Shown here: positions 5,759 through 24,717 of the stretch, piece after piece
Numbering within the stretch: the stretch's first letter is position 1
Layout of the letters: every line of letters begins with the position of its first letter
IMG/VR virus record: IMGVR_UViG_3300038825_000845
Span: 10,207-35,454 of that record
Source: a virus
Length of the DNA stretch: 25,248 nucleotides
Direction: 5' to 3' (one strand)
Made by a program: the position numbers and the translations under genes
Notes under the pieces: generated by a model
The model's database searches: none
The model's input: the letters and a program-made list of their open reading frames with translations, nothing else
Told to the model about the DNA's origin: nothing

Positions 5759-6466
5759 CTAGTCAAATGCTCCTAATAACCAAAAGACTAGTAAATATCT
5801 ATCACCTTTTTCTACTGGCAAGCCACGGTGCATGTGAGTGAAGCTAGGAAACATTAAAGCAGTTCCGCTAGGCAAAGGATCTACAATCCCTCTACCATGA
5901 AACTCAGTTCCGCCTCCTGTATATTCCCCAGTGTTGAGAGGCACTACAACACTAAGATCGGCTGAGGAGTCATGATGCCACGCTCCTTGTTGTTTGTCTA
6001 CTATATTATAGTTAGCTATTTGAATACTTCCTGGGCGAGCAGCATGTCTTTGCCATATAGACATAAACGCAGGGTTCAAGTAGTTAAGTGCCACGCTCCA
6101 AAGGTTATCAAATAACGGAGGACAGTTATCGTGCAGGGTTATTTCTGGTATCTGCCTTAGTACATCTTCCTCAGGGTTAGGGTTGAATCCCAGATATTCT
6201 TCCATGTGTTTTATTTCATCTAACATCATAGTGCAAAATTCTGGAGTAAATAAAGGCATAGTATAAACATCAGGGAGCACTTGCGTAACATACTCACCTA
6301 ACGTTGTTTTTAGATCTTTTTGTCCTTCGTGTATTTCGTAATCTTCAAAATCTGCCTCGGCATCTTGTATAAGTGCTAAAGTTGTTTTATTAACACACCA
6401 CTCACTATTGACACCTAACAGTGTATTCCTTAGTCTGTATGGAGCTAGTTCTTTAATTCTTGACAT
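5759..6466 (-). CDS. 2-oxoglutarate/Fe(II)-dependent oxygenase (prolyl-4-hydroxylase-like)
   Basis: This soluble enzyme class hydroxylates a protein, small molecule or nucleobase using 2-oxoglutarate and O2. The jelly-roll C-terminal part carries WHHDSSADLSVVVPLN, giving the HxD pair (H164, D166 counted from the ATG chosen). SFTHMHRG supplies the distal His (H213) and GDRY supplies Arg (R223), 10 residues on, for 2-oxoglutarate. The roughly 120-residue N-terminal part is not recognised. I chose ATG at 6466 because GGAAAA precedes it; a TTG four codons upstream is less likely. It is downstream of an AlkB-like gene, so two such oxygenases are clustered. The substrate is unknown; marine phages often carry related genes. 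Confidence 0.85.
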   Translation of the reverse strand: MSRIKELAPYRLRNTLLGVNSEWCVNKTTLALIQDAEADFEDYEIHEGQKDLKTTLGEYVTQVLPDVYTMPLFTPEFCTMMLDEIKHMEEYLGFNPNPEEDVLRQIPEITLHDNCPPLFDNLWSVALNYLNPAFMSIWQRHAARPGSIQIANYNIVDKQQGAWHHDSSADLSVVVPLNTGEYTGGGTEFHGRGIVDPLPSGTALMFPSFTHMHRGLPVEKGDRYLLVFWLLGAFD

Positions 6467-6481
6467 ACTATTTTCCAAATT

Positions 6482-6691
6482 TTATTTAGTCGACTTGACT
6501 TCATCAGTAGATGAAATTTGTTGTATAAATCTCTCATGTTGTTCTCTTTCTTCTTTACTGGGTCTCTTAATTGAGAAGCCCATAACTTTACCTGAGTGTA
6601 ATGCTTTACTGGCTGCAGATCTAATCTCAGGATACTCAGACTCTACAGCATCTTCCATTTCAAAAATCATTTTTACTATGTCTCTAGTCAT
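6482..6691 (-). CDS. Hypothetical helical protein between two oxygenases (69 aa)
   Basis: A small, charged, helical protein (MIFEMEDAVESEYPE, then RPSKEEREQHERFIQQI) with no recognised family. The ATG overlaps the last bases of the AlkB-like gene by 4 bp, and its stop is close to the start of the second oxygenase, so it is co-translated with both. Its conserved-looking placement suggests a helper or regulator, but nothing in the sequence shows this. Confidence 0.7.
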   Translation of the reverse strand: MTRDIVKMIFEMEDAVESEYPEIRSAASKALHSGKVMGFSIKRPSKEEREQHERFIQQISSTDEVKSTK

Positions 6692-7281
6692 AGCCCAGAC
6701 CTAAAAGTTAAATTAATTCTTTCTTCGGCTAAAGGTAAATCAGGCACAGCGTGAGTGCTTTTCATTTGACTGTGTCCGTCAAATATAAGTACATCACCAT
6801 GCTCTAAAATATAAAATGTTTCTTCGTTAAGAAAATTTTCTTCAAAAAATATATCGCTAGTATTAGTGTGTTTTTTGATAGGGTTTTGGTAAGTACGCCA
6901 AGCAAACACACGAGGACCACCAAAACTAATTGAAACTACAATGTCTTCTAAAGTAGGTACTGTATCACTGTGATGAGGTATACCTACACCGTTGTCCCCA
7001 TAGTAACCACAAAGACAAAAGGTAAACTTAACTTCTTTATTGTATACATCACTAGCTAACGCTTCAGCTCTTTCTTTTATAAGTTTCATTTTGTAAGTCC
7101 ACGGTTCTGGTTCCATGTACTTACCAGCATACTCAAACGGTGCGTCACCAAAGCCACGACTAGGTCTACCATAGACCATACCGTTCTTAGTTTTACGAAC
7201 TACAGGTTCATCCCAACGATCAAACTCAGGTTGAAAGTAGCTAAACGCTCCCTTTAGGTAGTGTATATTCTTTGTCATCAT
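6688..7281 (-). CDS. AlkB-like 2OG-Fe(II) dioxygenase
   Basis: AlkB-type enzymes remove alkyl groups from damaged bases by oxidation. The 197-aa sequence has the family pattern in order: CLCGYYGDNGVGIPHHSD with the HxD pair H104/D106, IVVSISFGGPRVFAW after it, LEHGDVLIFDG, the distal His in STHAVP (H177), and the closing RINLTFR (R188, R194), the hallmark RxNxTxR motif. Length is typical of viral AlkB. The start overlaps the terminase small subunit gene by 41 bp, so an internal later start cannot be excluded. Repair of methylated phage DNA is likely; action on a hypermodified base is possible but speculative. Confidence 0.88.
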   Translation of the reverse strand: MMTKNIHYLKGAFSYFQPEFDRWDEPVVRKTKNGMVYGRPSRGFGDAPFEYAGKYMEPEPWTYKMKLIKERAEALASDVYNKEVKFTFCLCGYYGDNGVGIPHHSDTVPTLEDIVVSISFGGPRVFAWRTYQNPIKKHTNTSDIFFEENFLNEETFYILEHGDVLIFDGHSQMKSTHAVPDLPLAEERINLTFRSGL

Positions 7282-11617: not shown

Positions 11618-11915
11618 CACTTTTACTCCTAATGAGACGGACATTTTTTTCTTTTAGCCATTGTCTCATTTGTTGCTTACGTTCTATTGTACTAATATTT
11701 GCATCGTATAGTAAAGTATTATAGTGGTCAGTATATACCTGATATCCACGGTAATAATCTCCTCCCCCTAACTCATTGAACCTTACTATCTGCCACACAC
11801 GTTGTTTTGACATCTTGTATTTCTTCCCTATTTCTTCAAGCGTCATATCTGTGTTGAGAGTTAACATAAATATTTCAAAATATTTAGCTCTTAATTTTTC
11901 TTTATTACTTATCAT
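11586..11915 (-). CDS. Helix-turn-helix protein (sigma region 4-like)
   Basis: The N-terminal half contains TLEEIGKKYKMSKQRVWQIV (residues 25-44), a helix-turn-helix of the type found in sigma-70 region 4 and related regulators. No other sigma-factor regions are present in 109 aa. The C-terminal half (STIERKQQMRQWLKEKNVRL, then IRSK) is strongly basic. It overlaps the DNA polymerase gene by 4 bp and the DUF1289-like gene by 32 bp. It may regulate phage transcription or bind DNA during replication; the target is unknown. Confidence 0.78.
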   Translation of the reverse strand: MISNKEKLRAKYFEIFMLTLNTDMTLEEIGKKYKMSKQRVWQIVRFNELGGGDYYRGYQVYTDHYNTLLYDANISTIERKQQMRQWLKEKNVRLIRSKSDGTKIITSND

Positions 11916-13792
11916 GCGTAAAACTCCTTGTAGTTTGTTACAGCTGTGCCCCAGCTATTCCCTATTTCTGCGTCAACTTTATTCGGCACAATTAAAGGCA
12001 CACAATCAGCCATTATTTGTATAATTTTTTCACAAGTTTCTTTTGAATCTACAGAGATATCTAACTCGTCGTGTACTTGTGTGTGGGCTAGTATGCCTTC
12101 CTTATATAGCTCTACCATAGCCTTTTTAGTCATGTCAGCAGCAGAGCCTTGTATAAGCCTATTCATAGCCTTGTAAGTAAACGACCGTTTAATATCCTGA
12201 CCATATTTATGTAAAGCGTCTGAGTGTGGTAGAGGAGTTTCTCCGTATTCAAAACGAGGTTCATATAAATTAAACCTACATTTACGTCCTAACACAGTAG
12301 TAATAAACCCACGATTGTTTCCTAGCCTAGCACATTGATCTCGTAAACCTTTAATAAAAGGTACACGTCTATGAAAAGTATCAAATAATATTTCTGCTTC
12401 TTGAGGCGAAATATCTAACTGAGATATAAGTTTGTCTTTACCCATACCATAACTTAAACCAAGATTAATAATCTTAGCTTCTTTACGACTAATGTTAGCC
12501 ATATCTGCCACTACTTGATGAAAGTCTGCGTCTTTATTTCGATAAGCATCTACTGCTTCATCTGCACCTTCTTGCTCAGTTTTATGAGCATAGTGTACAG
12601 TTAGTCTAGGCTCTTGTTGAGAGTAATCAAAAGCTCCCCAGTGCATATTGGTTTCTGGTACAAACACACTACGGATAAGCGGACCAATCTCATCGTGTCT
12701 AGCTGGTACTTGTTGAAGGTTTGGTTTACTACTACTGAATCTACCAGTAACAGTTCCTCCACGGTCAGAGCGTAAAGGATGAAGTTCCCCATGTATTCTA
12801 CCTTTAACATTATGCTCTAGTATCATCTTATCTATAAAAGTAGTTCTTGCTTTATTAAGCTGTCTAGCTCTAGCTATATCTTTAGCAAGTTTATGCTCAT
12901 GTCCTTCAAGCCACGCTGAAGTAAAACTAGGTGCATTTGTTTTAGCAGTTCTTGGATAACTTAAACCAGCACGGTCAAAAACAATAGCAACACTTGCTGC
13001 TGCCCATAAGTCAGGACTCACACCATAGTCTTTTTGTATGCCGAGCATAATAGTTTCTTCTTCTTTCTTTAACTTAGTGCCTACCTTTTCAGCTCTGTCT
13101 AAATCCACAGGCACACCTTTCCACCGCATGTCTAATAATAAAGGAATAAGTGCAGTTTCTAATGCATATATTTTTTGTACGTTTTCTTTAACTAACCCTT
13201 CTTTTAATATACCCCAGAGTTTTAAAGTTAATGCTGCATCTTGCTCAGCGTACTTACCTACATATTTAGCTGGTAGTTTATACATCTCACTTTTAGGATC
13301 TAGCCCAAAAGACTTTGCTGCTTCTTCAAGCATGCTTTCATCTTTTAATTCTCCTACATATCTTTGACCTAATTTATTAAGTGAATAACCAAACTGATTT
13401 TCATCTATAAGAGGTGCAGCAAACATAGTGTCGTGTATAGTTCCTTTAACTTCTATACCTAGACGTCTTAGCCAACCTAAATCATACAAAGAGTTATGAA
13501 AAATTTTGTCATTAGTATATGACATTTGTTTTATCATCCAGTTAGTAACGACTCGCTTGTCTAAATTCCCACCACCGACATGCTGTATAGGTAAATAGAT
13601 AGCAAAATCTTTAGTCGCTATAGCTATACCAGTCACATACCCCTGACCTTCAAAAGCCCATGACGGTCCATGAGACATAAGTAGAGGGTCGTAAGTTTCT
13701 AGGTCAATAGCTACCTCTTTATAGTTAGCTAAGTCAGGTAGACTGCTAGGGGGTGACCAGTCAGTCTCTGGTGCAAACATACTACTTTGCAT
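11912..13792 (-). CDS. polA: Family A DNA polymerase with 3'-5' exonuclease
   Basis: This is the replicative polymerase. The exonuclease domain shows Exo I AIDLETYD (D30, E32), Exo II HNSLYDLG (D104) and Exo III YAEQDA (Y181, D185). The polymerase domain shows motif A WGAFDYSQQEPR (D389), motif B RKEAKIINLGLSYG (R437, K440, Y448) and motif C QVHDEL (D575). There is no 5'-3' exonuclease domain, as in most phage versions; 626 aa is normal. The residue aligning with E. coli Pol I Phe762 is Leu444. This class is described as common in marine viral communities and differs from the Tyr of T7. The start overlaps the DUF1599-like gene; an ATG four codons on is an alternative. Confidence 0.96.
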   Translation of the reverse strand: MQSSMFAPETDWSPPSSLPDLANYKEVAIDLETYDPLLMSHGPSWAFEGQGYVTGIAIATKDFAIYLPIQHVGGGNLDKRVVTNWMIKQMSYTNDKIFHNSLYDLGWLRRLGIEVKGTIHDTMFAAPLIDENQFGYSLNKLGQRYVGELKDESMLEEAAKSFGLDPKSEMYKLPAKYVGKYAEQDAALTLKLWGILKEGLVKENVQKIYALETALIPLLLDMRWKGVPVDLDRAEKVGTKLKKEEETIMLGIQKDYGVSPDLWAAASVAIVFDRAGLSYPRTAKTNAPSFTSAWLEGHEHKLAKDIARARQLNKARTTFIDKMILEHNVKGRIHGELHPLRSDRGGTVTGRFSSSKPNLQQVPARHDEIGPLIRSVFVPETNMHWGAFDYSQQEPRLTVHYAHKTEQEGADEAVDAYRNKDADFHQVVADMANISRKEAKIINLGLSYGMGKDKLISQLDISPQEAEILFDTFHRRVPFIKGLRDQCARLGNNRGFITTVLGRKCRFNLYEPRFEYGETPLPHSDALHKYGQDIKRSFTYKAMNRLIQGSAADMTKKAMVELYKEGILAHTQVHDELDISVDSKETCEKIIQIMADCVPLIVPNKVDAEIGNSWGTAVTNYKEFYA

Positions 13793-14102
13793 TAGTTTTA
13801 TTAGCTTCAGCCTCTTCTAATAAACGAGTAGCATACTCCTCAACTAAAAACAAGTAACATCGTAAATCACGCACATCATCCAGTATACCAGTAGAGCTTG
13901 GGTCATCAAGTATGGCACCGATTACATCCCAATGACAATGCATTGATTGGTTTTCTATACGGTCGAACTTACGTGCTAACATCATAAAAGCACCGACGCC
14001 ACCACGCTTACGCCAACTGTCACCATAACTTTTCTCGGCATGCTGTAACTGAGCTACGTCACGTTGAGCTAACTTTTCTATTTTATCAAAATTTGCAGGC
14101 AT
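13782..14102 (-). CDS. DUF1599-like (nucleotide-modification-associated) protein
   Basis: The 106-aa helical sequence has AEKSYGDSWRKRGGVGAFMM (residues 22-41), then LARKFDRIEN, then GILDDVRDLRCYLFLVEEY. This Y-G-x-S-W, K-x-x-R-I and D-D-x-x-D-L-x-x-Y order resembles the DUF1599/Nmad1 domain, which comparative genomics links to DNA-base modification in phages. The match is by eye and moderate. The gene lies between the DNA polymerase and the PD-(D/E)XK nuclease in a block that also carries a thymidylate-synthase homologue, glycosyltransferase and 5-hmdU-kinase-domain protein, so the context agrees. Confidence 0.72.
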   Translation of the reverse strand: MPANFDKIEKLAQRDVAQLQHAEKSYGDSWRKRGGVGAFMMLARKFDRIENQSMHCHWDVIGAILDDPSSTGILDDVRDLRCYLFLVEEYATRLLEEAEANKTNAK

Positions 14103-14112
14103 ATTTTTCTCC

Positions 14113-14796
14113 TTAGGTTAATCTACTGGGGCATATATTTTGTTTACCAAAATAACACCATTTACATTTACGTTCACTAGGCTTAGCAGGAAACTCTGTA
14201 GTAGTAGTCATAAAAACTGCTCTATCATTTAGCCTCTTTTGTTTAGCCTCAACTGTTTCTTTATCGTATTGATAACGATCTAACTTACCATGGTCAAGAT
14301 ACCACAACTCTGTAGTAATAGTTTTAAGCTCAGGTAATCTATTAAACACAATAGAAGCGTAAAGCTCACACTGTTCTCTATGCCCTTCTTGGTTACCATC
14401 ATACCTACCTGTTTTAAAATCAATTACCCTAGCGTTATCTTCACCCTCTATATGAACAAAAGCATCTACTTTAGCTCTGCCCCATGTGTCACTATCAAAC
14501 CAACCTGTAGGTTCCCACTCTGTGGTAAAAGCCCAGTCGCCTTCACAAAGCACATGACCCTTTAAGTGTAAGTCTTTTAATAACTCAAAAGCTTCCTGAA
14601 ACTCAGTCAACTGTTTAGGCATATCATCAAACCGACCACGTATATACTCTTCACAAAGCTTGTGAATATCTTTACCTCTATCCATAGCTTTATTCCCAGG
14701 TTCTTTAATACGTTGTATGTAGGCATACTCTGCTTTTTTAGGACAGTCTTCAAAAGTTTTTAGTCTACTGTAAGACCATTGTGCTATATTACTCAT
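14113..14796 (-). CDS. PD-(D/E)XK nuclease (Cas4/RecB-like)
   Basis: The fold is a DNA exonuclease or nickase of the RecB family. Motif I surrounds GKDIHKLCEE (H45). The catalytic core is KVDAFVH (D111) and RVIDFKTGRYDG (D126, K128), followed by QCELYASIV (Q142, Y146), the RecB motif. One Cys near the start (C18, in FEDCPKK) plus three at the end (C211, C214, C222 in CKWCYFGKQNIC) match the iron-sulfur cluster layout of Cas4 and AddB-like nucleases. The 227-aa length is typical. It overlaps the thymidylate-synthase homologue by 4 bp. A role in end-processing during replication or recombination is likely; no CRISPR is present. Confidence 0.9.
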   Translation of the reverse strand: MSNIAQWSYSRLKTFEDCPKKAEYAYIQRIKEPGNKAMDRGKDIHKLCEEYIRGRFDDMPKQLTEFQEAFELLKDLHLKGHVLCEGDWAFTTEWEPTGWFDSDTWGRAKVDAFVHIEGEDNARVIDFKTGRYDGNQEGHREQCELYASIVFNRLPELKTITTELWYLDHGKLDRYQYDKETVEAKQKRLNDRAVFMTTTTEFPAKPSERKCKWCYFGKQNICPSRLT

Positions 14797-15815
14797 TTTT
14801 TATTTTCCTTATTTTTAATCGCTCTGTTTAACCAATTAAATCCAGCAGTACACCAATCAGAAGCAGCACAACCCTGAACTTCAATGAGTGCCTCTTCATA
14901 TTCTCCTTGCTTATAAAAATACCACGCATCCTGTAAAGGTACGGCTACCTGCTCAAAGAATGGATCGATAAATGTTTTAGTTTCTAAAGGTTGACGAGTT
15001 AAGAAATTTACTAAATCTCCTTCCCAAATCTCTAATTCTGTATTGACTATAGGATAAGGGTTTATAGCTTTATTCTCATATGGATTTGGTGCGTGTTTAA
15101 TACCATAGTAATCAAAAGCATCGTCAGCAGCAAGTTTGTCATACATCTCATCGTACACGTCTAAATATGCATGGAAGCTGTCACTAATTTGGGTATAACT
15201 ACCCACTTCGACACCTACAAAACTAGCAACATATTCTTGTAGAAAAGCCATATGTACTACGTTAGCACCAAACGTTCCCCATATAACATCGTTAGATCTA
15301 TTACTAACTGTCATCATGAGTTTGTTATTTCGTATTTTAAAATAAATAACAGTATTACAAGGCACATCTACACCTGCTCTATTTAAGTCTGCTTGAGGAT
15401 CCCACATTTGTAGTACACATCTTCTATCCGTAGGATCTTTACGCAATCTTTCTATAATTAAACCTAGCTGATCACCACCAAAATGTTCTCGCCATCTATA
15501 GCCATACGCTCCATGTAGAGTAATGCCATCATCGCTGTACTCTTCCATACGTTTATTATAGTAATGTACATACTCTAGGTCGTTACAACCACCTAACATC
15601 CACAAGCTTTCCATAAAATGAAAGAAAGGGTTAGCTCTACGAATCTCTTCAAATAAAACTTTTTCTTTAGGGTTTAAAAATACAGTAGCTACTGGTCCAT
15701 CAGCCTCGACTACTGTACCCACTCTACTTTCTTTTTCTTTATCTCTATAGTGCTGAAGTAAATCTAGCCCATGTATAAAACCATCGTTAACATTTCTACA
15801 AGTTATAAAATCCAT
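14793..15815 (-). CDS. Thymidylate synthase superfamily enzyme (possible dUMP hydroxymethylase)
   Basis: Enzymes of this fold transfer a one-carbon unit from methylene-tetrahydrofolate to C5 of dUMP or dCMP. The catalytic Cys is C153 in DVPCNTVIYF. SNRSNDVIWG (R173, S174, D176) and N185, with ISDSFHAYLDVY (H215, Y217), match E. coli ThyA Arg166, Ser167, Asp169, Asn177, His207 and Tyr209. The Asn kept at 185 points to a uracil nucleotide rather than dCMP. PCN instead of the ThyA PCH is a change in the pocket. Flanking genes for 5-hydroxymethyl-dU chemistry make dUMP hydroxymethylation an attractive reading; plain thymidylate synthesis remains possible. The 340-aa length is above the usual 264. 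Confidence 0.9.
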   Translation of the reverse strand: MDFITCRNVNDGFIHGLDLLQHYRDKEKESRVGTVVEADGPVATVFLNPKEKVLFEEIRRANPFFHFMESLWMLGGCNDLEYVHYYNKRMEEYSDDGITLHGAYGYRWREHFGGDQLGLIIERLRKDPTDRRCVLQMWDPQADLNRAGVDVPCNTVIYFKIRNNKLMMTVSNRSNDVIWGTFGANVVHMAFLQEYVASFVGVEVGSYTQISDSFHAYLDVYDEMYDKLAADDAFDYYGIKHAPNPYENKAINPYPIVNTELEIWEGDLVNFLTRQPLETKTFIDPFFEQVAVPLQDAWYFYKQGEYEEALIEVQGCAASDWCTAGFNWLNRAIKNKENKK

Positions 15816-16040
15816 TTAAGCTCCTTTATTATTTTGTTGTAATAAAAAATTGACAATTTTTAATTTGTCGGTTATCTCTGCCATTTGACCAACAAGTGCG
15901 TCAATCTCTACAAAAATTTGAGTGTGCTCTGGTATAACTCTTGGTGTATTTAATAATACATCTAAGTTTACACCGACTGTGTTTCTTCTACCTTCTAGTT
16001 CTGTTTTGTATGCTGTTAATATTTCAGAATAACTCACCAT
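15816..16040 (-). CDS. Hypothetical coiled-coil-like protein (74 aa)
   Basis: A small protein whose C-terminal half (FVEIDALVGQMAEITDKLKI, then VNFLLQQ) has heptad-like Ile/Leu/Val spacing, suggesting a short coiled coil. The N-terminal half (YSEILTAYKTELEGRR) is helical. No family is recognised. It overlaps the glycosyltransferase gene by 17 bp and abuts the thymidylate-synthase homologue, so it is made together with the putative modification enzymes and might bridge or regulate them. Confidence 0.7.
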   Translation of the reverse strand: MVSYSEILTAYKTELEGRRNTVGVNLDVLLNTPRVIPEHTQIFVEIDALVGQMAEITDKLKIVNFLLQQNNKGA

Positions 16041-16797
16041 TTTTAGCTCCTGTTTTATATGCTTGTTTCCATTGTACCTTTACATCTTTTCTTATTGCCC
16101 CACCCCACGCAGTTTTAGTTTCTTTTTCTACTACTGAAACTACGTCAGGATGAAGTTCTTTTAAACGCTCGGCTCCTTCTGACTGTACATCTAAAGTACG
16201 CCATTCACTACAACCACCAGCAGCATTACTGCTACCTTGACCTTGAGCATAGTAATAACTCACTTTGCTAGGTAGACCTTTCTTTAATAATTGAAGATTT
16301 ATATCAAAGTCTTCCATAACTTTTACCCTACCTACTTCTACACCATCAAAATGATCTAAGTTATAAGCTAGTACACGCATGTACCTAGTGTTTTCTACTG
16401 ATAAATGCTCTACACGGTTATTACCTTCCCGAGCACTAACACCAACATGAGCGTAATCATCAAGCCACTTATCTATTAAACCAAACATAGCAGGGTACTC
16501 TTCTCCCTCTAAATAACGTAAATGCCAATCGTTATGTTTTTTACGAATATAAAAACGTAAATCATCATCAAGCATTACTATCTTATTAGTAGTAGCGTTC
16601 TCATGTATGTACTTACGTTTAGTTGCTATGTCATGAACAGACTCAGGACATACCATAATTTTACAATCGTATTTAGTGTACTGATCTGCTTCGTCATAAT
16701 CTACAACTAACGTTACTTGTTGACGCAGTTCTTCAGGAAAGTAGGACAACGTAACTTGCTGGTCAGCTCTCCCCCTTGTGGGTATGTATATATTCAT
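16024..16797 (-). CDS. GT-A glycosyltransferase, TET-associated (TAGT)-like
   Basis: The 257-aa sequence begins MNIYIPTRGRADQQ and has MLDDDLRFY (D77-D79, the metal- and nucleotide-sugar-binding DxD) after a predicted Rossmann-like half. These features, with VMEDFDINLQLLKKGLPSKV and the C-terminal basic tail, resemble the glycosyltransferases found next to TET/JBP or 5-hmdU-modifying genes in phages. In those systems the enzyme puts a sugar on hydroxymethyl-pyrimidine in DNA. Its neighbours here are the thymidylate-synthase homologue and a 5-hmdU-DNA-kinase-domain protein. The sugar is unknown. A different acceptor (protein or small molecule) is possible. It overlaps both neighbours. Confidence 0.8.
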   Translation of the reverse strand: MNIYIPTRGRADQQVTLSYFPEELRQQVTLVVDYDEADQYTKYDCKIMVCPESVHDIATKRKYIHENATTNKIVMLDDDLRFYIRKKHNDWHLRYLEGEEYPAMFGLIDKWLDDYAHVGVSAREGNNRVEHLSVENTRYMRVLAYNLDHFDGVEVGRVKVMEDFDINLQLLKKGLPSKVSYYYAQGQGSSNAAGGCSEWRTLDVQSEGAERLKELHPDVVSVVEKETKTAWGGAIRKDVKVQWKQAYKTGAKNGELF

Positions 16798-17624
16798 TTA
16801 TTTACCTTATATTTTGCACGTGGTCTGCCTTCACCCAAACGTGTACGTTCATATTTATCGAACTCACAAAGGCAGTGTTCGATATCTCTCATCTCTAGTG
16901 GTAACATGTGTCCTTGTAAATAATCAGGAGAGCAATCTAGTAACTCTTTCATCTCAGTATTTAATTGTTCTTTTTTAATTGTTTTATTTAGATCCCTATG
17001 ATGTATTCTATTCAAACCACGCTGAGCTCCAGGTCCAGGATTAGCCCAAGTCATAATATCTTTAGCATTCTTTAACCATTTAGTGTGGCGTAGATCTGTC
17101 ACCACCTCGTAAGCCATAAACCCACTAAAACCAGCATGTTTTAAATAACCTTTCCATGTTTCTTCTAGTGAGTCTTCTATCATAGGTGGGTGATTATTGT
17201 ATAACGGTGTTAATATTTTATCTATAGTTTGTTCTATTTTAGAACCACCTAACGTCCCTGTCAACATGTACGCACCAGTGTAGACTTTTTCTTTTCTAGC
17301 CATTCTACCCTGCATTATAGCTTTTAACCTTTCAGGATTCCAATGCTCAGGAAAACCAAGCTCTTGTAAAGTGTCTGGCCAATTGATTTGTCTAGCCACA
17401 GCCATAGCAAAAGGTAAATTATAATGGTCAGCGTAAGGCTCTCGCCAGTTAATTCGTATCCATTCTGTAACTCTATCTAGTTCACGGTACACGTTACAAA
17501 AACTATACTCATTTAATATCGCATCACTAGTCCACGGATACTTAACACCGTTCTGTCGACGTAAGTATATGATATGACGTTCGTTTAAATAATTAAAAAA
17601 CTTTTGTACTTCTTCTTGATTCAT
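16794..17624 (-). CDS. 5-hmdU DNA kinase helical-domain protein (HMUDK_hel/aGPT-PPlase type)
   Basis: Proteins of this family act on 5-hydroxymethyl-dU in DNA, where pyrophosphorylation activates the base for further additions. The match is strong: NERHIIYLRRQNGVKYPWTS, then DAILNEYSFCNVYRELDRVT (about residues 14-53), INWPDTLQELGFP, KVYTGAYML, GFSGFMAYEVVTDL and NPGPGAQRGLNRI follow in the family's order. No Walker A (GxxxxGK[ST]) is found, so the P-loop kinase part seen in fused versions is missing and would need to be separate or replaced. The 276-aa length suits the stand-alone helical domain. The gene overlaps the glycosyltransferase and the 164-aa gene by 4 bp each. Confidence 0.88.
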   Translation of the reverse strand: MNQEEVQKFFNYLNERHIIYLRRQNGVKYPWTSDAILNEYSFCNVYRELDRVTEWIRINWREPYADHYNLPFAMAVARQINWPDTLQELGFPEHWNPERLKAIMQGRMARKEKVYTGAYMLTGTLGGSKIEQTIDKILTPLYNNHPPMIEDSLEETWKGYLKHAGFSGFMAYEVVTDLRHTKWLKNAKDIMTWANPGPGAQRGLNRIHHRDLNKTIKKEQLNTEMKELLDCSPDYLQGHMLPLEMRDIEHCLCEFDKYERTRLGEGRPRAKYKVNK

Positions 17625-18115
17625 GCTACTTCTTTAACCCACCAGTCAGGTTTAGGTGTACATTTATTCCACTCAGCGTAGTGCTTTTCATTAATTAAAT
17701 AGTTACGATAAGCTTTAATAGGGTCAGCGTCTTTATACTGGTCTGGCATAGCTTGGGCAGGGGAATAAAATTTATACTTAGGTATTTGAGTAGGCACTTC
17801 TGCTAGTTTATCTTTTAGTTTAGTCCAACTAGCATGTACTTTACCATAGCGTTTAGTGTACTCGTCGGATAAACCGTTAAAGTGATTATAAAGCCATTTA
17901 TAATTCATAACACTTTCCCTAGCCCAGATAGTGCAGGGGTGATTAAGGTGAGCAGTTTTATAAATACCGTTGAAGTCACAGTAAGCGTCACCGTTATAAA
18001 CACGGTGCACAGTAGATAACATTTGAGCACTTTCTAAAGGCATCTTGACTACTAACTTATCAGGTAGCATACTTGCAGCTTTGAAAGGATCTTTATGTAC
18101 ATAAAATATATTCAT
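17621..18115 (-). CDS. Conserved phage protein of unknown function (164 aa)
   Basis: I do not know a function. The sequence begins MNIFYVHKDPFKAASMLPDK, then LVVKMPLESAQMLSTVHR, continues with the His-rich KTAHLNHPCTIWARESVMNY and ends with PDQYKDADPIKAYRNYLINE, then KHYAEW. Similar proteins with this order are common in marine phage genomes. Conserved Lys, His, Glu and Arg residues suggest an enzyme rather than a structural protein. It is the first gene of the putative base-modification run, overlaps the 5-hmdU-kinase-domain gene by 4 bp and follows an AGGAGAAATTAT ribosome-binding site, with an AT-rich gap upstream that may hold a promoter. Confidence 0.8.
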   Translation of the reverse strand: MNIFYVHKDPFKAASMLPDKLVVKMPLESAQMLSTVHRVYNGDAYCDFNGIYKTAHLNHPCTIWARESVMNYKWLYNHFNGLSDEYTKRYGKVHASWTKLKDKLAEVPTQIPKYKFYSPAQAMPDQYKDADPIKAYRNYLINEKHYAEWNKCTPKPDWWVKEVA

Positions 18116-18170: not shown

Positions 18171-19670
18171 CTAAATCATCACTTTAAACTCTTTCCTAGT
18201 TCTCCCTTGTATTACATGTAAGTTTTGTTTAGTCCTAGTTACCCCTACATAAAACGCTCGACACTCGTTATCAGGGTTGATATAGAGCTCATCAAAAGTT
18301 TTAGTAGCCATGTCAGTAATAAGTACTACATTTTCACACTCCCCACCTTTAGTAGCATGTATAGTGTTCAACTTAATTCGTGAAGAATTTACTTTTTCTC
18401 CTTTACGAAGGCATGAAATAATATACTCACGTTGAGCATCTCCTATTAAAGCAAACGACTTGTGCCAGATACCATCTACTAATAAACCATAACTTTGTTT
18501 TAACTGATTAATATCTAACATTAATTCTGGGTCAGCTTGTTTCATTGTTTTATACCCAGTGCGCACACCTTGACCTGCTTTCATAAAACCGTAAATTCTT
18601 TTTATATTATGAGCTTTAATCTTTTCTCCCTCACGTAATCTTTCCCAGTCTAATATAGCGTGTATTAAATTTTCATTAACAGAAGATTTATTGCTCTTAG
18701 TATAAAAATATCCCGCAGTTCTTAAATGGTCTTCTACTTTATTCAGTAGATAATTATTACGAGCTAAGAACAACCAATCACCAGAACTGTAATCTAAATG
18801 TTCAAAGCTGTTGTGGTAGGTTACGCTTCCTTCATCTTCTCTAGGTATCCATGTTTTATGCCTACGATTTTTTATACGTTTAACAATATTTAAAGCTACG
18901 TCATGGACTTTTTTAGGTACACGATAACTTTGTTCTAGATATATTTCATTACCTCTTAAATTAATAAAGTGGTCAGGGTCGGCACCTGCCCATTTATATA
19001 TTGCTTGGTCATCATCCCCAGCTATGTAAACATGATCTACACCTTGAGCTAATTTATGTATACATTTCCACTGTAACGCAGAAAGATCTTGAGCCTCATC
19101 TACAATTAATGCTTTGAGAGGTGGCACACTGTCAAAATCTACAAAACCAGAAAGCATGTCTGTATAGTCCATTAAGAAATTAGTTTGTTTATAATTTGTG
19201 TAACTCTTACAAAACCAATCAAAGTGCATCCAACCTATATCTGTTTTAGCCCTTGACCATGTTTCTCTATATCCTTCACATTTATTCCTAGCCATATTTT
19301 CTAAGAATAACATACTATCACCTTTAGAGTTTAACGCCATTAAATTCTCACCGTCCCAAGCTGAGTTAATACGTTCTCCTACAATTTTACTAAACGCTCG
19401 TAAGTCTTTACGATCCATAATATCAGATTTATTTAGACCTTGCCAAAAATAACAAAGTGAATGAATAGTTCTAAAATATATTAATTGATCAGGTTCGTAT
19501 TGAAATTTATCTACAGCTCTAGTAAGAGCTTCAGTTGCAGCTTTTTTAGTGAAAGCAAGATATGCTAACTCGTAAGGTTTTATATCTTTTTTAAATAGTT
19601 CTTCTACAGTCTTTAATAAAAAAGTAGTTTTACCAGTGCCTGGTGGTCCAAGAACTATATTCCAACTCAC
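18171..19670 (-). CDS. UvrD/PcrA-like superfamily 1 DNA helicase
   Basis: This ATP-driven helicase unwinds DNA in the 3'-5' direction in known relatives. All SF1A motifs are seen: Walker A GPPGTGKTT (residues 8-16), motif Ia LAFTKKAA, motif II VDEAQD (190-195), motif III AGDDDQAIYKWAGA (217-230), motif IV EQSYR (246-250), motif V LNTIHATKGGE (434-444) and motif VI FYVGVTR (473-479). At 499 aa it is shorter than bacterial UvrD (about 720), with reduced 1B/2B domains. It overlaps the primase gene by 4 bp, which suggests cooperation in replication, perhaps in place of a DnaB-type helicase. Confidence 0.93.
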   Translation of the reverse strand: MSWNIVLGPPGTGKTTFLLKTVEELFKKDIKPYELAYLAFTKKAATEALTRAVDKFQYEPDQLIYFRTIHSLCYFWQGLNKSDIMDRKDLRAFSKIVGERINSAWDGENLMALNSKGDSMLFLENMARNKCEGYRETWSRAKTDIGWMHFDWFCKSYTNYKQTNFLMDYTDMLSGFVDFDSVPPLKALIVDEAQDLSALQWKCIHKLAQGVDHVYIAGDDDQAIYKWAGADPDHFINLRGNEIYLEQSYRVPKKVHDVALNIVKRIKNRRHKTWIPREDEGSVTYHNSFEHLDYSSGDWLFLARNNYLLNKVEDHLRTAGYFYTKSNKSSVNENLIHAILDWERLREGEKIKAHNIKRIYGFMKAGQGVRTGYKTMKQADPELMLDINQLKQSYGLLVDGIWHKSFALIGDAQREYIISCLRKGEKVNSSRIKLNTIHATKGGECENVVLITDMATKTFDELYINPDNECRAFYVGVTRTKQNLHVIQGRTRKEFKVMI

Positions 19671-23271: not shown

Positions 23272-24717
23272 ATGACAGATTTTAAATTTAAGACAAAACC
23301 ATATGAGCATCAGCTTGATGCATTAATGGCTTCTCATGATAAAGATGAGTATGCTTTATTTATGGAGATGGGGTGTGGTAAATCAAAAGTAGTAATTGAC
23401 AACTTTGCTTCTTTGTACGCTACAGCTAAAATCTACAACGTATTAATTGTTGCACCTAAAGGTGTATACGACAACTGGTACTCAAAAGAGATACCTATAC
23501 ACCTACCAGACCACATACCATACGACATGGTCAAGTGGCAAAGTAACCACACGAAAAAGTTTACTAAAGAAGTAGAAAATTTGTTTACTATAGATCACAA
23601 TATGAAAATACTTGTGATGAACATAGAAGCTTTTAGTACTAAGAAAGGTGTACAGTTTGCTAATAGATTTTTACAACATAATAAAACTATGTTTATAATA
23701 GATGAAAGCACAACTATAAAAAATCCAGAAGCCAAAAGAACTGCTAGCTGTGTACGTTTAGGTAAGTACGCATATTACAGAAGAATACTCACAGGTTCGC
23801 CAGTAACTAAAAGCCCATTAGATTTATATAGTCAATGTATGTTTTTAAATCCAGCACTTTTAGGATTTAGTAGTTTTTATTCTTTCCGTGCTAGGTATGC
23901 AGACATGGTAGAAAAACGTGGTCAAGGTAGAACTTTTAAATTTGTCACAGGTTATAAAAACATGGACGAGCTGAATGAGTTAATAAATAAATTTAGCCAC
24001 AGAGTTTTGAAAAAAGATTGTTTAGACTTACCAGAAAAAGTATATATAAAAAGAACTATAGAGATGACAGCTGAACAACAGAAAGCGTATAAAGAATTAC
24101 AACGCTTTGCTGTTACTTTATTAAAAAATTCTAAGACAGTAACCATCAACCATGTTATAACGCAAATCATACGTTTACATCAAATTTCATGCGGATTCAC
24201 AGTAACTGATGACGGAGTTACTACCGAAATAAAATCTCAGAGGCTTCCAGAATTGCTGTCTATATTAGAAGAAACCGATGGAAAAGTGATTATTTGGGCT
24301 AATTATAGATACGACATAAAACGTATAGAAAAAACATTAAAAGAAATTTATGGTGCTAATTCAGTAGGAACTTACTACGGTGGAGTAGAACAAGTTGAAC
24401 GTGAAAGAGTTATAAACGAGTTTCAAGATCCTAATAGCCCTCTAAGATTTTTTGTAGGCAATACTCAAACAGGTGGTTATGGTATTACTTTGACTGCTGC
24501 TAGTACAGTGGTATACTACAGTAACAACTATGACTTAGAAAAACGTTTACAGTCTGAAGACCGTGCTCATCGTATTGGTCAAACTAATAAAGTTACTTAT
24601 ATAGATATAGTTTGTGAAAGAACTGTAGATGAAAAGATAGTAAAAGCTTTGCGTAAAAAACAATCTATTGCTAACTTAGTATTAGGCGAAGAAACGTTTA
24701 CTGATTGGTTAAAATAA
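23272..24717 (+). CDS. SNF2-type superfamily 2 helicase
   Basis: SNF2-family proteins use ATP to move along double-stranded DNA and remodel protein-DNA contacts or branched DNA. The 481-aa sequence shows YEHQLDAL (motif Q/0), Walker A MGCGKS (residues 33-38), IIDESTTIKN with DEST at 144-147 (motif II), LTGSPV (motif III), and in the second RecA domain TQTGGYGITLT (motif V) and RAHRIGQ (residues 431-437, motif VI). This is the compact phage form without extra domains. It is the only large plus-strand gene, divergent from the replication operon, and ends 1 bp from a convergent gene, with no room for a terminator. Confidence 0.95.
   Translation: MTDFKFKTKPYEHQLDALMASHDKDEYALFMEMGCGKSKVVIDNFASLYATAKIYNVLIVAPKGVYDNWYSKEIPIHLPDHIPYDMVKWQSNHTKKFTKEVENLFTIDHNMKILVMNIEAFSTKKGVQFANRFLQHNKTMFIIDESTTIKNPEAKRTASCVRLGKYAYYRRILTGSPVTKSPLDLYSQCMFLNPALLGFSSFYSFRARYADMVEKRGQGRTFKFVTGYKNMDELNELINKFSHRVLKKDCLDLPEKVYIKRTIEMTAEQQKAYKELQRFAVTLLKNSKTVTINHVITQIIRLHQISCGFTVTDDGVTTEIKSQRLPELLSILEETDGKVIIWANYRYDIKRIEKTLKEIYGANSVGTYYGGVEQVERERVINEFQDPNSPLRFFVGNTQTGGYGITLTAASTVVYYSNNYDLEKRLQSEDRAHRIGQTNKVTYIDIVCERTVDEKIVKALRKKQSIANLVLGEETFTDWLK

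Follow-up and report, generated by a model that had tools for sequence, protein, structure and literature searches.

A predicted thymidine-hypermodification cassette in a pelagiphage-like virus appears to combine a constant core with exchangeable transferase partners

Which modified base would a phage make if it encoded a thymidylate synthase (TS) homologue, a glycosyltransferase and the helical protein HMUDK_hel side by side? The question is raised by a 25,248-nucleotide (nt) stretch of DNA from a marine phage (the window: bases 10207-35454 of the 35,454-bp IMG/VR record IMGVR_UViG_3300038825_000845; G+C ~36%), in which seven tightly spaced genes fill the minus strand from window position 13782 to 18115, most neighbours abutting or overlapping by 4 nt (coordinates below are window positions unless a locus is named). 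A preliminary description of this DNA had proposed an operon of six genes in a new combination; its gene positions and their tight spacing held but the number did not, a 227-amino-acid (aa) open reading frame for a PD-(D/E)XK nuclease having been overlooked. The operon is real and, as a putative thymidine-hypermodification cassette, lies between the genes for a UvrD-like helicase and DNA polymerase A (PolA). From its sequence we predict, at slightly better than even odds (about 0.55), that a hydroxymethylase, HMUDK_hel and a TAGT glycosyltransferase together produce a base-J-like 5-(glycosyloxymethyl)deoxyuridine (dU) at some thymidine positions.

The 340-aa TS homologue (14793-15815, minus strand; PF00303, E 4.5e-22; phrog_5131) is probably a dUMP 5-hydroxymethylase, a call that follows from two residues. 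Hydroxymethylases of this superfamily are marked by Asp or Glu three residues ahead of the catalytic Cys, where thymidylate synthases have Leu, and Asp or Asn at the base-discriminating position goes with dCMP or dUMP, respectively (PMC6400193). Asp150, three residues ahead of the catalytic Cys153, occurs in all 108 homologues and the dUMP-type Asn185, already recognised in the preliminary description, in 107 of them, while Cys153 and Glu69 are invariant in the same set. The closest relative in the PDB is the CMP 5-hydroxymethylase MilA (E 1.9e-26, compared to 2.6e-15 for the best thymidylate synthase) and the protein scores under every NCBIfam thymidylate-synthase cut-off; on the signature residues and these low scores an ordinary thymidylate synthase was rejected. 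Both the signature and the MilA match agree with the earlier proposal of thymidine modification through 5-hydroxymethyl-dU (5-hmdU) with participation of a glycosyltransferase. Phage M6, whose DNA is reported to contain a 5-hmdU-derived base (PMC6449724), carries the same signature in its gp58.

Pfam profiles bore out the identities suggested earlier for the next two proteins. The 257-aa protein (16024-16797, minus strand) matches TAGT, PF20691, along the entire profile (positions 1-205 of 205; E 3.5e-20; 73.2 bits against a cut-off of 27.5) as well as phrog_842 (E 6e-53), and a search against PDB sequences gave no significant match. Asp77-79 (the GT-A metal-binding motif), Asp163 and a Gly-Gly-Cys motif (194-196) are invariant across 22 homologues. 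TAGT, the TET-associated glycosyltransferase family linked to DNA modification, has relatives encoded in 352 IMG/VR stretches, and many contigs have its gene between those for HMUDK_hel and the hydroxymethylase; here 4 nt are shared between its start and the HMUDK_hel stop, with a 17-nt overlap on the other side. We propose that it glycosylates 5-hmdU in DNA.

The 276-aa protein (16794-17624, minus strand) is HMUDK_hel (PF18723, formerly aGPT-Pplase1; E 2.4e-46; 158.8 bits against a cut-off of 25) and is 42% identical over its full length to ORF055 of M6. Its profile found no match among PDB sequences, and its AlphaFold2 model (pLDDT 93.3) is predicted to have a fold like that of helix-hairpin-helix (HhH) DNA glycosylases: in VIA-align the top match was PUGT (8z2n; Z 11.4, 219 residues, 3.9 Å), many HhH DNA glycosylases followed at Z 8-10.5, and nearly all of the top 50 belonged to the HhH glycosylase superfamily. 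Fifteen residues are invariant in homologues spanning all partner classes described below, as expected if HMUDK_hel handles a substrate that these share. A kinase identity was discarded, no P-loop kinase match being found, and the kinase is instead a separate protein or domain: Pfam assigns M6 gp54 to the P-loop kinase PF18748, gp55 to HMUDK_hel and gp51 to the amino acid:DNA transferase (ADDT) PF18724, and in Bacillus phage SBSphiC a single 636-aa protein carries the kinase joined to HMUDK_hel (L113:4053-5963). A genome scan with the M6 HMUDK_hel returned only three loci. In Acinetobacter phage nACB2 a macro-domain protein is encoded directly ahead of HMUDK_hel (L109:4212-4907).

How HMUDK_hel and TAGT might be connected is suggested by the genes found beside HMUDK_hel in relatives. 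Among 101 loci, non-redundant at 95% identity, the partner is TAGT in 47, an S-adenosylmethionine (SAM) methyltransferase in 38 and the kinase in nine; seven have none and no locus has two classes. The partner lies within 100 nt of HMUDK_hel at 114 of 169 TAGT, 74 of 79 methyltransferase and seven of 10 kinase loci (redundant set), and in sister phages (L101, L197-L276) the SAM methyltransferase directly precedes HMUDK_hel, in the place of TAGT (e.g. L101:5138-5980, plus strand), where its product may be 5-methoxymethyl-dU. Neither kinase PF18748 nor ADDT PF18724 was found in 22 TAGT-class contigs, comprising this one (a 35-kb fragment, TAGT-class relatives reaching 63.6 kb and many measuring 45-64 kb) and 21 relatives, nor in phage LuckyBarnes or the contig of locus L096. 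The activation of the base before sugar addition that had been envisaged earlier is therefore not supported, at least as activation is known, because no kinase was found. In the same searches both kinase and ADDT were found in M6 and two M6-like contigs, which had no TAGT match above the cut-off; Pam3, RHph_I72, SBSphiC and LysYB2 likewise have the kinase and lack TAGT. Twenty methyltransferase-class contigs of 46-84 kb contain neither TAGT nor kinase over the cut-off, and the methyltransferase is absent from all 20 TAGT-class contigs of the window's family tested.

On the HMUDK_hel tree the three partner labels require four changes, compared to a mean of 22 when shuffled. The methyltransferase class forms a single clade, and a number of long branches are uncertain, so the independent partner-change events are few. 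An apparent swap of TAGT for kinase between the sister loci L096 and L193 was not relied on, L193 being a 6.4-kb contig that ends just past HMUDK_hel. HMUDK_hel and the hydroxymethylase thus seem to form a constant core whose partners, TAGT, methyltransferase or kinase, are mutually exclusive, an arrangement that is apparently new: we found no description of the three-way swap or of the methyltransferase class in the literature searched, which did not cover Lee 2022 (metagenomic combinations). A core with an exchangeable transferase suggests an interchangeable module for DNA protection.

The constancy of this core is also seen in the UvrD-PolA interval itself. Two hundred database loci (a redundant set: 126 TAGT-class, 74 methyltransferase-class) cover the whole interval and have TAGT or the methyltransferase, and HMUDK_hel, the hydroxymethylase and a 106-aa all-helical protein (p106; 13782-14102, minus strand) are all present in 200 of these 200 full-length cassettes, a recurrence that argues against a chance gene order. 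The flanking genes are those for the 499-aa UvrD-like helicase (18171-19670, minus strand; profile match) and the 626-aa PolA (11912-13792, minus strand). PolA is 54% identical to that of phage 023Pt_psg01 and 48-49% to those of the Pelagibacter phages HTVC027P (49%) and HTVC023P, which places the window phage near HTVC023P-type pelagiphages. Among complete relatives of ~60 kb, DSL-LC04 has no cassette at this position, its UvrD and PolA genes overlapping by 4 nt, and 023Pt_psg01 has just two small genes there; with this site empty or nearly so in both, the cassette is a discrete block. Protein families, signature residues, cassette order and the mutual exclusivity of partners are thus established by sequence.

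From these we infer a route whose reactions, sugar, DNA acceptor and base-presenting role for HMUDK_hel are all to be read as predictions. The TS-superfamily enzyme, with the hydroxymethylase signature observed, would convert dUMP to 5-hydroxymethyl-dUMP (5-hmdUMP), which would be phosphorylated to 5-hmdUTP and incorporated by the phage polymerase. Once the DNA is complete, HMUDK_hel would bind the duplex and expose 5-hmdU, and TAGT, a glycosyltransferase by family, would move a sugar from a nucleoside diphosphate sugar onto the 5-hydroxymethyl oxygen, the glycosylated base then shielding the DNA from host nucleases. On the same core, the kinase in M6-like phages and the SAM methyltransferase in the sister phages would act as the alternative transferases to the TAGT found here. 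From the fold, the fusion and the partner exclusivity, HMUDK_hel may be the shared subunit that handles 5-hmdU DNA and presents the base. More tentatively, and in our estimate somewhat short of even odds, it could be a general base presenter, a repurposed HhH-glycosylase fold into which transferases plug, the kinase giving 5-phosphomethyl-dU, TAGT a base-J-like glycosyl-hmdU and the SAM methyltransferase 5-methoxymethyl-dU. We know of no report of glycosyl-hmdU or 5-methoxymethyl-dU in phage DNA. Should the glycosylation route be true, the number of IMG/VR stretches with TAGT relatives would make base-J-like DNA frequent among marine phages. The partner-swap pattern, for its part, points to a role that can be tested for a phage protein so far described only as a 'helical domain', and it leads to the prediction that a methyltransferase makes a third class of modified thymine.

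Several findings weigh against this glycosylation route. MW202897 encodes TAGT beside a pyrimidine hydroxymethylase without HMUDK_hel, which is hence not universally needed, and the TAGT of T6 has been assigned to the addition of a second glucose onto glucosyl-hydroxymethylcytosine (PMC13390438), so that direct action of TAGT on the base is not guaranteed. In mirror-tree analysis of 44 TAGT-class loci, the HMUDK_hel and TAGT distances had no excess correlation (partial r -0.07), and a tight interface between the two is unsupported because their coevolution does not go beyond that with background genes. The fold match of the HMUDK_hel model is middling by Foldseek (E 0.14), helical models may reach such Z scores by chance, and the contig is itself a fragment. 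The missing coevolution signal and the MW202897 arrangement, together with a partner label that changes just four times along the HMUDK_hel tree and a methyltransferase class confined to one clade, would also fit TAGT and HMUDK_hel working independently, TAGT glycosylating alone, HMUDK_hel serving as a 5-hmdU-DNA reader, repair-blocker or maturation factor, and the exclusivity reflecting lineage history. We judge such independence unlikely in view of the prevailing direct adjacency of HMUDK_hel and its partner in all three classes, at the frequencies given above, and of the fusion of HMUDK_hel with the kinase in SBSphiC.

HMUDK_hel might, conversely, be a catalytic transferase itself, replacing or extending the 5-substituent in the manner of PUGT, with TAGT glycosylating the group so installed and the final base more complex than glycosyl-hmdU. 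PUGT, a 5-phosphomethyl-dU glycinyltransferase, is the best fold match of HMUDK_hel, the invariant Arg, Asp, Lys, Glu and Tyr of the latter could form an active site, and some TAGT loci (L096, L194) have radical-SAM/SPASM enzymes or an additional glycosyltransferase-like gene. PUGT, however, acts on a phosphorylated base, and the TAGT-class contigs yielded no kinase; in M6 a separate protein, gp51, fills the transferase role and HMUDK_hel adjoins the kinase; and the kinase-HMUDK_hel fusion links HMUDK_hel to the phosphorylation step, all of which leaves a catalytic HMUDK_hel about as improbable as an independent one. Lipopolysaccharide is the target of some phage glycosyltransferases, and TAGT could on that precedent be unrelated to DNA, acting for example on a host surface polysaccharide while the remaining genes make unsugared 5-hmdU or a partial system. 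Glycosyltransferases acting on lipopolysaccharide are mentioned for other pelagiphages in one report (PMC9599517). We consider this last explanation very improbable, as the TAGT family is associated with DNA modification, many contigs place its gene between those for HMUDK_hel and the hydroxymethylase, with overlaps on both sides in the window, and TAGT is mutually exclusive with kinases that act on DNA.

A base-J-like product, as preferred here, would set the cassette apart from the known systems it resembles. The Pseudomonas phages M6, YuA and PaMx11 (5-NedU and related bases) share with the window a homologous hydroxymethylase of the same signature and a homologous HMUDK_hel (42% identical in M6), both near PolA, but M6 has the P-loop 5-hmdU kinase and ADDT with no TAGT over the cut-off, whereas the window cassette has TAGT and neither of those. 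The claim of a new gene combination was overstated. A 2022 report describes, in HTVC023P-type pelagiphages with PolA 48-54% identical to that of the window phage, a TS accompanied by aG/PT-PPlase1 and in some cases also by a 5'-deoxynucleotidase and a glucosyltransferase carrying the annotation beta-glucosyl-HMC-alpha-glucosyltransferase, a set termed 'DNA hypermodification partner AMGs' (auxiliary metabolic genes) and resembling the combination seen here (PMC9599517). The report treats the enzyme as a thymidylate synthase and, in its accessible text, says nothing of a mechanism, of signature residues, of mutually exclusive partners or of a methyltransferase class. In LuckyBarnes, a cultured Brevibacterium phage, TAGT and HMUDK_hel likewise share a gene run with a TS-superfamily protein (TS-GT-GT-HMUDK_hel, GT denoting glycosyltransferase), and the genome is without PF18748, but this phage differs in its two tandem TAGT genes, its 517-aa TS-fold protein and a distant HMUDK_hel of ~30% identity. 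Kinetoplastid base J (JBP1/2 and JGT), an O-glucosylated 5-hydroxymethyluracil, is of the same predicted product class; base J synthesis begins with a dioxygenase acting on thymine in DNA (PMC6449724), whereas 5-hmdUMP would be made before incorporation here. The T6-type TAGT (Tequatrovirus, PMC13390438) shows PF20691 at work in phage DNA modification too, but on a cytosine base.

The remaining cassette genes revise the earlier assignments further. The 164-aa protein (17621-18115, minus strand), previously a conserved unknown, matches Pyr_excise (T4-endonuclease-V-like; PF03013, E 4.9e-9, 36.9 bits against a cut-off of 23) and phrog_624 (E 6e-56), and is present in 115 of 126 TAGT-class and 43 of 74 methyltransferase-class full-length cassettes. 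T4 endonuclease V uses its N-terminal Thr2 as the nucleophile; the 164-aa protein lacks this residue, Asn2 being invariant across 17 homologues. The 74-aa small protein (15816-16040, minus strand; phrog_1811, E 2.1e-6), formerly placed at the end of the operon, lies inside it and is variable, with a homologue recognisable only in closer TAGT-class relatives. The PD-(D/E)XK (RecB/Cas4-like) nuclease missed earlier (14113-14796, minus strand; PF12705, E 2.2e-21) occurs in 125 of 126 TAGT-class versus none of 74 methyltransferase-class full-length cassettes. The DUF1599 identity proposed for p106 found no support at the sequence level, PF07659 matching neither the contig (E<=10) nor any of 30 homologues (E<=1). 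In comparisons with the p106 AlphaFold2 model (pLDDT 86.6), MazG-type NTP pyrophosphatases came near the top at Z 5-6.4, which is within noise (2p06, DCTPP1, 4qgp, 2yxh, 1vmg). Unexpectedly for a helical protein, p106 showed some correlated evolution with the hydroxymethylase in the mirror-tree analysis (partial r 0.51 after conditioning on PolA, UvrD and primase), which hints that it serves a step of the nucleotide pool.

Additional enzymes were noted at related loci and elsewhere in the window. Radical-SAM/SPASM-type enzymes lie beside the glycosyltransferase at L194:5865-8373 and L096:5973-9328, the former locus also having an FkbM-like methyltransferase and the latter a 429-aa protein with no Pfam match and a GT-B look, which suggests more elaborate bases there. 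The window phage encodes two 2-oxoglutarate-Fe(II) oxygenases, one OGFOD2-like (PF13640) and one AlkB-like (PF13532), at 5759-6478 and 6688-7281, respectively, and the AlkB-like type is also found near HMUDK_hel in many relatives. A cytidylyltransferase-like nucleotidyltransferase (PF01467; 2435-2866) could in principle provide an activated donor, and an SNF2-type helicase (23272-24717) is encoded on the plus strand, opposite the long minus-strand operon.

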